Positions 4,816-35,622 of a stretch of DNA of 37,543 nt are shown here, piece by piece; positions within the stretch are counted from its first letter, which is position 1, and each line of letters begins with the position of its first letter. Below the pieces are notes generated by a model. The model did not search any database. It had not been told where the DNA came from and was given only the letters and a program-made list of their open reading frames with translations. The stretch lies in NCBI GenBank assembly GCA_027083925.1, contig JALWMK010000145.1, forward strand, positions 1-37,543, written 5' to 3'. A program made the position numbers and the translations under genes. The DNA comes from Sedimenticola sp. Its GTDB lineage: Bacteria > Pseudomonadota > Gammaproteobacteria > Chromatiales > Chromatiaceae.

Positions 4816-4838
4816 GGAAGACAGCAGCAACAGGCATT

Positions 4839-4866
4839 AAAAAGGGCGGTTCAACCGCCCTTTTTT
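4839..4866 (+). terminator. Rho-independent terminator after feoC (bidirectional)
   Basis: GGGCGGTT and AACCGCCC form a GC-rich stem separated by a single C, so the real loop is made from the stem top. An A run precedes it and TTTTTT follows it. On the minus strand the same hairpin is followed by five T residues, so it can also end transcription of the secreted-protein gene that stops at 4925. Confidence 0.9.
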
Positions 4867-15426: not shown

Positions 15427-16353
15427 ATGAATAAGGTAGTGATAATGGGGGCAGGCCGGGTGGGGGAGACTACGGCACTGATTCTTGCAAAGCAGGAAAT
15501 ATGCAGAGAAATCATGCTCATAGATATTCGCAAGGATGCTCCCCAGGGCGTGGCGCTGGACATTATCCAGACGTCGCCCTTTTTCAATTTTGATACCCGG
15601 GTGGGGGGCAGCAACGATGCCGCTGATCTTGCGCACGCGGATCTGGTGGTGATTACCGCCGGCATTCCACGCAAGCCCGGAATGTCCCGTTCCGATGTGC
15701 TGGAAACCAATGTGGCCATTATCGATGATATTGTGGATGATATTCTGCAATATGCGCCAAATGCCATGATTCTGGTGGTGAGCAATCCGGTGGATGTACT
15801 CACCTGGCGGGTATGGAAGCGCACAGGATGGCCCCGAGAGCGGGTCTTCGGGCAGGCTGGCGTACTGGATGCCTCGCGCATGGCCACATTTATTGCCATG
15901 GAAACCGGGTTTTCCAGCCGTGACATCACCACTTTGGTATTGGGCGGGCACGGCGACAGCATGGTGCCCGTGCCAAGATTTTGTACAATCAACGGCATTC
16001 CCATCAGTCATTTTATCAGTGCGGAGCGAATACAGGATATAATTCAGCGCACCCGCGAAGGCGGGGCGGAAATACTGGCGTTGCGCAAAAATTCCAGCGC
16101 CTATGACGCCCCCGGGGCATCTGTGGCGGCAATGGTGGATGCCATCAGCCACAACCGCAAACGTCTGCTTCCCTGCGTGGCGATTCTGCAGGGCGAATAT
16201 GGGCAGGCGGATATTGCCATGGGGGTGCCTTGTGTCCTGGATGAACAGGGGTTGGCCAAAGTCTTGGAATTGGATCTGAATGCAGAGGAATCTGTCTCGT
16301 TCCAGCGTTCTGCCGCTGCAGTCAGCCAGGACATTGACCGGCTTGGAACCTGA
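15427..16353 (+). CDS. mdh: Malate dehydrogenase, lactate-dehydrogenase-like type
   Basis: This 308-residue NAD-dependent enzyme interconverts malate and oxaloacetate. The Rossmann fingerprint GAGRVG (8-13) and Asp33 (LIDI) indicate NAD use. Catalytic and substrate residues are Arg82 (PRKPGMSR, where malate enzymes carry Arg), Arg88, Asn120 (SNPVD), Arg151 and His175 (GGHGDSMVP). The GAG-type fingerprint and the GGHGDSMVP motif place it in the tetrameric LDH-like group, unlike the GAAGGIGQ enzyme of E. coli and many gammaproteobacteria. The ATG at 15427 was chosen over an upstream in-frame start inside maeB because AGGAGG lies eight bases before it. That ribosome site may be masked by the hairpin at 15383-15420. 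The stop codon overlaps the palindrome at 16349-16370. Confidence 0.93.
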   Translation: MNKVVIMGAGRVGETTALILAKQEICREIMLIDIRKDAPQGVALDIIQTSPFFNFDTRVGGSNDAADLAHADLVVITAGIPRKPGMSRSDVLETNVAIIDDIVDDILQYAPNAMILVVSNPVDVLTWRVWKRTGWPRERVFGQAGVLDASRMATFIAMETGFSSRDITTLVLGGHGDSMVPVPRFCTINGIPISHFISAERIQDIIQRTREGGAEILALRKNSSAYDAPGASVAAMVDAISHNRKRLLPCVAILQGEYGQADIAMGVPCVLDEQGLAKVLELDLNAEESVSFQRSAAAVSQDIDRLGT

Positions 16354-16370
16354 ATCCGTCTGGATTCAGG
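16349..16370. repeat. Dispersed palindrome, copy 1 (mdh-gltA gap)
   Basis: CCTGAATCC and GGATTCAGG are perfect 9-bp arms around GTCT. The left arm contains the mdh stop codon. The arms match those of two other intergenic copies in this window (34601-34620, 35561-35580). No T tract follows, so it is a poor terminator. Confidence 0.75.
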
Positions 16371-34567: not shown

Positions 34568-34600
34568 AGGTGCGTATCTTCGTTATCCGTTAGACTATAA

Positions 34601-34620
34601 CCTGAACCCACGGGTTCAGG
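34601..34620. repeat. Dispersed palindrome, copy 2
   Basis: CCTGAACCCACGGGTTCAGG has perfect 9-bp arms around AC. It lies in a divergent promoter region between the reductase and the SDR gene, so it cannot be a terminator for either. It matches copy 3 at 19 of 20 positions and the arms of copy 1 closely. Confidence 0.8.
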
Positions 34621-34671
34621 TAAGAGCCTGAATTGTCGCCGATTTGGCGCTGTATGAAAACCGTTGGATTG

Positions 34672-35541: not shown

Positions 35542-35560
35542 CAAGCCCGCGTCAAGTGAT

Positions 35561-35580
35561 CCTGAACCCACGGATTCAGG
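35561..35580. repeat. Dispersed palindrome, copy 3
   Basis: CCTGAACCCACGGATTCAGG has 9-bp arms with one mismatch around AC, in the same orientation as copy 2. It lies 19 bases after the SDR stop and about 42 bases before rsfS. There is no T tract. Confidence 0.78.
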
Positions 35581-35622
35581 GTGATATCATTATTCCCAAT
35601 TATTTTGTGAAGATATTGATTT

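Follow-up and report, generated by a model that had tools for sequence, protein, structure and literature searches.

Tn10 undergoes nearly precise excision, in which a deletion between short repeats lying in its inverted-repeat ends leaves a remnant that keeps both target copies. Small dispersed repeats of roughly 20 bp, which Elhai is said to have described from cyanobacteria in 2008 (cited in PMC3116915 and PMC2884548), are suspected of being mobile. Bacterial MITEs are defined, in the available part of one account, as small elements with terminal inverted repeats, a target duplication, many copies and ends shared with an IS (PMC4133298), and ISEcp1 of the IS1380 family makes 5-bp duplications, according to the accessible portion of another (PMC2887853). 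In Haloquadratum walsbyi, 22-bp terminal palindromes of the PATEs mediate core deletion, giving terminal-only elements; the sections of the report at hand document such deletions between two strains, and its authors suspect that the terminal-only remnants can be mobile (PMC3119063). By analogy, the terminal-only PATEs may be taken as the closest precedent for the core deletion proposed here.

Here we describe a 37,543-nucleotide stretch of the genome of a Sedimenticola sp. (contig JALWMK010000145.1; hereafter the window), in which two short palindromes are insertions whose sequence also forms the ends of a 160-bp MITE. As in the IS1380 family (e.g., ISEcp1), the target duplication is 5 bp long, and intact elements of relatives carry the same terminal CCTGAATCCGTG, but the MITEs and the 20-bp copies standing alone (hereafter solos) encode nothing, and this genome has an IS1380 fragment only. 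Small size, inverted ends, duplication, copy number and IS-family ends are shared with bacterial MITEs such as TIMEs and Chunjie; unlike these, the ends are of the IS1380 type, each end is palindromic, and most copies are apparently 20-bp terminal-only remnants. Tn10 is a kilobase-scale compound transposon, in contrast to the 160-bp MITE, a remnant with both target copies being common to the two cases. The cyanobacterial repeats are likened to the solos by description only, in their size of about 20 bp and in their suspected mobility. As far as the consulted text goes, the PATEs are archaeal and IS605-type, measure 52 bp after deletion and have no target duplication, whereas the solos are 20 bp long and IS1380-type, with 5-bp duplications.

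Palindromes of the window and their copy number

Three matches to the palindrome lie in the window where the initial annotation had placed them, namely, at 16349–16370 with a 4-base spacer and at 34601–34620 and 35561–35580 with a 2-base spacer (all on the + strand); dinucleotide shuffling of the window (n = 100) put the number expected by chance at 0. The 34601 copy (CCTGAACCCACGGGTTCAGG, an exact match) lies between divergent flavin-reductase-like and SDR genes, and the 35561 copy (CCTGAACCCACGGATTCAGG, an exact match to the consensus form) between the SDR/epimerase gene and rsfS; the two differ by a single base and have the same orientation, as had been described. The names given to the neighboring genes (malate dehydrogenase, citrate synthase, flavin reductase-like, NAD-dependent epimerase/SDR and RsfS) were also confirmed, the flavin reductase-like protein reaching a top NCBIfam score of 210 bits, under the model cut-off of 230 bits. 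The 16349 site, however, is not strictly intergenic as had been claimed for all three, because the stop codon of mdh (TGA, 16351–16353) falls within the palindrome. Reading of the flanks bore out the absence of a T tract at every one of the three sites, by which an intrinsic terminator was rejected. Rfam gave no matches in the window, L093 or L022. Elsewhere in the window, the perfect palindrome AAAAAGGGCGGTTCAACCGCCCTTTTT at 4838–4864 is a typical bidirectional terminator, and another, TAATGAGAATAGTTCTCATTA at 1927–1947, resembles a Fur-type box.

A count across the whole genome, which the initial annotation had proposed, found 75 matches to CCTGAAYCC-N0-8-GGRTTCAGG in 2,584,014 bases and none to the reversed control; thus, the frequency is above that expected by chance. 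The form with the N2 spacer accounts for 72 copies in this genome (reversed control, 0) versus 0–5 in 14 congeners, eight of which have 1–5 copies and six none. Outside the genus, it was present in 1/19 other members of the family and in 0/21 other members of the class. Among the 72 strict copies, 61 have the asymmetric form CCTGAACCCNNGGATTCAGG and 10 have T on both sides. The asymmetric form occurs in 16/210 genomes of the family, every other genome having at most five copies. Related copies were found in named records of Candidatus Thiodiazotropha endolucinida (L211, with TGGCA on each side of the copy), a Sedimenticola sp. MAG (L206) and several Gammaproteobacteria MAGs; L199 (HyVt-441) contains an element that has both ends and is flanked by TAATT on each side, and L196 and L201 contain solos with perfect duplications. 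Matches in Paracoccus, Pimelobacter and a deltaproteobacterium, which are without such context, are probably due to chance. A scan of viral contigs gave 0 copies of the palindrome. An alignment of 121 distinct 20-mers (three or fewer mismatches), which includes most, not all, of the diverged copies of the genome, comprised 54 ends of a longer element and 67 solos.

Target duplications and empty sites

Perfect 5-bp direct repeats flank 27 of the 67 solos genome-wide (0.3 expected), a further 12 have a 5-bp repeat with one mismatch, and pairing of left and right flanks across different sites as a control gave 0.47% and 3.75%. At 28 of the 67, there is no 5-bp duplication even when one mismatch is allowed; four of these have a perfect 6-bp repeat instead. 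Compared with congeners, the insertions at 34601 and 35561 each measure exactly 25 bp, corresponding to the 20-bp palindrome plus a 5-bp target duplication. At 35561, the two copies of the duplication, GTGAT, occupy 35556–35560 and 35581–35585, and five congeners (G009, G010, G005, G003 and G014) have the single-copy empty site ..CAA-GTGGTATCAT.. without intervening bases. Eight additional congeners lack the palindrome at a GTGGTATCAT-like site, so that it is absent from 13/13 readable congeners, including the sister species G009, which is 92% identical to the window genome over this region. At 34601, the target was TAAGA, which G010 has once as GAC-TAAGA-GCC; the right copy is kept at 34621–34625, and the left one, at 34596–34600, has since mutated to TATAA. 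This palindrome is absent from 9/9 congeners with both flanks, another five being unreadable there.

Comparable results were obtained with 26% of the G009 genome, taken as stretches, in which 12 solo sites had both flanks. Six are exact 25-bp empty sites (L015, L021, L030, L040, L084 and L087), and in four, the context is changed and the palindrome lacking (L033, L041, L079:11942 and L081); of the remaining two, L079:976 is ambiguous and L038 is shared by descent. From the target duplications and the empty sites, it therefore follows that the dispersed palindromes, including those at 34601 and 35561, are insertions. A different palindrome history applies to L038, L182 and L183, where CCTGAATCCACGGATTCAGG (differing at a single base in L182) occupies the corresponding position in three species, without duplication; it is vertically inherited and not an insertion.

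Directly downstream of the 35561 insertion, TATCAT at 35585–35590 (–10-like, TGNTATCAT) is kept upstream of rsfS in most congeners read. The insertion displaces whatever occupied the –35 position upstream of rsfS.

The initial annotation had considered that a transcription regulator might use the three palindromes as operators and so connect gltA, rsfS and the SDR/flavin reductase pair. In their perfect or nearly perfect symmetry, short spacing and closeness to gene starts, the palindromes are what such operators would look like, but the target duplications that flank the copies and the absence of two of the three window sites from every readable congener argue against this proposal. Moreover, the 56 of 67 solos that could be placed with a simple gene caller are found in tandem (28), divergent (12) and convergent (7) contexts and inside called frames (9). 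The regulon is thus not supported, and we consider it highly improbable.

Hairpin between mdh and gltA

The palindrome at 16349–16370 has no target duplication, and as RNA it folds with –16.4 kcal/mol (z, –3.4). The same hairpin is present between mdh and gltA in the sister species G009, where C:G takes the place of T:A on both arms; the C:G version of G010 has longer arms, and G005 has kept the arms with one G.U pair. It is decayed in G003 and G014. In G001, G004, G006 and G008, there is no hairpin, and the mdh frame continues past that point. Judging from these orthologous sequences, the 16349 palindrome is an older, vertically inherited hairpin under some constraint. The changes on both sides of the stem and the continuation of mdh in the lineages without it suggest that the mRNA has a conserved hairpin where mdh and gltA meet, a reading that we think rather likely; the hairpin is possibly an ancient solo that was retained and supplies the mdh stop. 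Against the latter stand the lack of a clear target duplication and the varying length of the spacer, and an origin from the MITE family would be a matter of resemblance only. Since this hairpin is a separate and vertically inherited feature, the three palindromes are not to be treated as one group, as they had been originally.

The 160-bp MITE and its IS1380-type ends

The solo-type 20-mer makes up both ends of a MITE with a consensus of 160 bp (19 aligned copies) and 18-bp perfect terminal repeats. Its 'A' ends (n = 28) read CATGAACCCACGGATTCAGG preceded by GCGCTATGCGCCGT, and its 'B' ends (n = 26) read CCTGAACCCACGGATTCAGG preceded by CTCTGCATCCGC. Among the matches listed, copies covering at least 150 of the 160 bases were found in at least 21 places. 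The element has terminal inverted repeats, no coding capacity, a length under about 300 bp, multiple copies and a target duplication, which is a perfect 5-bp repeat in 15 of the 23 elements extracted, a 5-bp repeat with one mismatch in four and a perfect 6-bp repeat in one. As DNA, its single strand is predicted to fold into one long hairpin (z, –5.5). Thirty-five of the 38 MITE termini carry T at position 7, and outside solos and MITEs alike, the target shows a preference for T at +1 and for T, C and A at +7 to +9; this preference is less marked at the A end of the MITE. Of six MITE sites compared in G009, four are empty exactly and the other two almost exactly; diverged 160-bp relatives with matching ends occur in G001, G004, G006 and G009. 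Complete 160-bp copies within longer contigs ruled out that the MITE ends are artefacts of contig breaks at an IS.

Several variants accompany the MITE. A second miniature element with ends GGGCACCTCTATTAAT and ATTAATAGAGGTGCCC is nested in 160-bp MITE copies at L031:1287-1443 and L059 (contigs C70 and C165 of the window genome), and parts of it also flank L033, L041 and L057. In G001, the MITE at L142:1501-1708 contains a nested insertion of about 47 bp and itself has AATTT on each side. A shorter MITE of 107 bp (L210:1883-1989; HyVt-583) and a longer one of 181 bp (L199:158-338; HyVt-441), both from gammaproteobacterial MAGs, have the same A/B inner ends.

Both MITE ends have CCTGAATCCGTG as their outer 12 bases, as does the solo on one of its sides; this sequence is identical to the termini of three intact IS1380 elements of related genomes, except for one left end with one mismatch. 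The first of these, found by searching the genus for IS1380 transposases with PF13701, is a 1,659-bp element in G001 (L097) with ends CCTGAATCCGTGACTTC and the duplication TATAT; its 442-residue transposase scored 327 bits against NF033539 (IS1380; cut-off, 180). An IS1380 protein search throughout the family (35/210 genomes) yielded a further two elements whose ends could be read, one having CCTGGATCCGTG / CCTGAATCCGTG and the duplication TTCAA (L214) and the other having CCTGAATCCGTG at both ends and the duplication TATTT (L220). The 5-bp target duplication typical of IS1380 is thus common to solos, MITEs and intact elements. No intact IS1380 element was found in this assembly; because the genome has only a 49-residue IS1380 fragment, the source transposase is lost, outside the assembly or was never resident. 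The IS1380 remnant on C68 does not carry the MITE ends. In the literature searched, we found no description of IS1380-type MITEs.

These ends also bear on the REP-like repeat that had been suggested at the outset. Such a repeat would be a REP/REPIN element moved by a RAYT (single-strand, IS200-like) transposase, and the palindromes are indeed short, numerous and mostly intergenic. The description as a genome-wide repeat holds for 34601 and 35561, but that as REP does not, given the 5-bp target duplications and the IS1380-type termini. IS605-type elements make no target duplication, according to the part of the report available to us (PMC3119063). The REP/RAYT reading is therefore rejected because the solos carry target duplications, and we regard it as barely credible.

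Origin of the solo copies

The copies at 34601 and 35561 are probably solo copies of a MITE end, that is, 20-bp scars left by core deletion from a MITE that an IS1380-type transposase had spread. An IS1380-family DDE transposase, supplied in trans, would have inserted the 160-bp non-autonomous MITE with a 5-bp target duplication. Because each MITE end is a near-palindrome, the inverted-repeat ends double as imperfect direct repeats, with 15 of 20 bases in agreement and a perfect run, CCTGAA, of only 6 bp. Presumably, slippage or recombination between the ends, aided by the hairpin of the whole MITE, removes the core and one end, and the product would be a scar of 20 bp, flanked by the two target duplications in unchanged form and equivalent to a terminal-only or 'nearly precise' excision. 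Small repeat-mediated deletions are present inside the MITE ends of L056, L058 and L011. The solos have CCTGAA in 61/67 cases and CATGAA, as in the A end, in 3/67; they look like B ends or A/B recombinants and unlike the A end. About 70 solos in the genome would thus derive from the MITE end, as scars without a common regulatory role.

Nevertheless, among the G009 stretches and the relatives' loci, which came from species representatives, no site was found that is occupied by the MITE in one species but by a solo in a second one. The MITE L136 of G006 and the solo L079 of G000 are not clearly at the same site, and the candidate pairs L142/L315 and L181/L300 were dismissed, the element being absent from both G006 sites. 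To tell core deletion from direct mobility, a solo starting with TCTGAA was sought, the MITE B end beginning in this way in G004, G006 and G009; 739,918 bases of G009 and 400,000 of G006 contained none, but with only a handful of solos of any kind there, this comparison has too little power to weigh on either side. Solos outnumber MITEs by more than 2:1, with few intermediate sizes, and G008 and G014 have a solo with a duplication and no MITE match. From this distribution and the absence of MITE/solo pairs, direct mobility of the 20-mer is conceivable, in that the transposase, or a one-ended fold-back variant, inserts the bare 20-bp palindrome with a 5-bp duplication. The duplications and empty sites of the solos, including the TGGCA-flanked copy of Ca. 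Thiodiazotropha endolucinida, are as expected of an inserted unit, and the duplications are not clearly less well preserved in solos than in MITEs (p = 0.05 or 0.15, according to whether repeats of 6 bp are counted). However, the 20-mer is too short for two 12-bp ends, its sides being CCTGAATCCGTG and CCTGAACCCACG (9/12), and most strict copies are asymmetric, whereas the MITE termini nearly always have T at position 7. With its ends only 2 bp apart, moreover, the 20-mer would not accommodate a normal synaptic complex, as judged from DDE transposases generally. We therefore consider mobility of the palindrome itself somewhat doubtful, and core deletion from the MITE remains the preferred origin.

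Discussion

Short intergenic palindromes are easily taken for operators, terminators or REPs; here, they are insertions, and their ends name the transposase family. It is unlikely, in our estimation, that a bare 20-mer with one authentic 12-bp IS1380 end has been mobilized on its own, with a 5-bp target duplication, dozens of times since the split from a sister species. If it has, the single-end 20-mer would rank among the smallest units that a DDE transposase is known to move. The IS family, the MITE and the large set of 20-bp derivatives together offer a test of how such tiny repeats originate, by core deletion or by direct movement.
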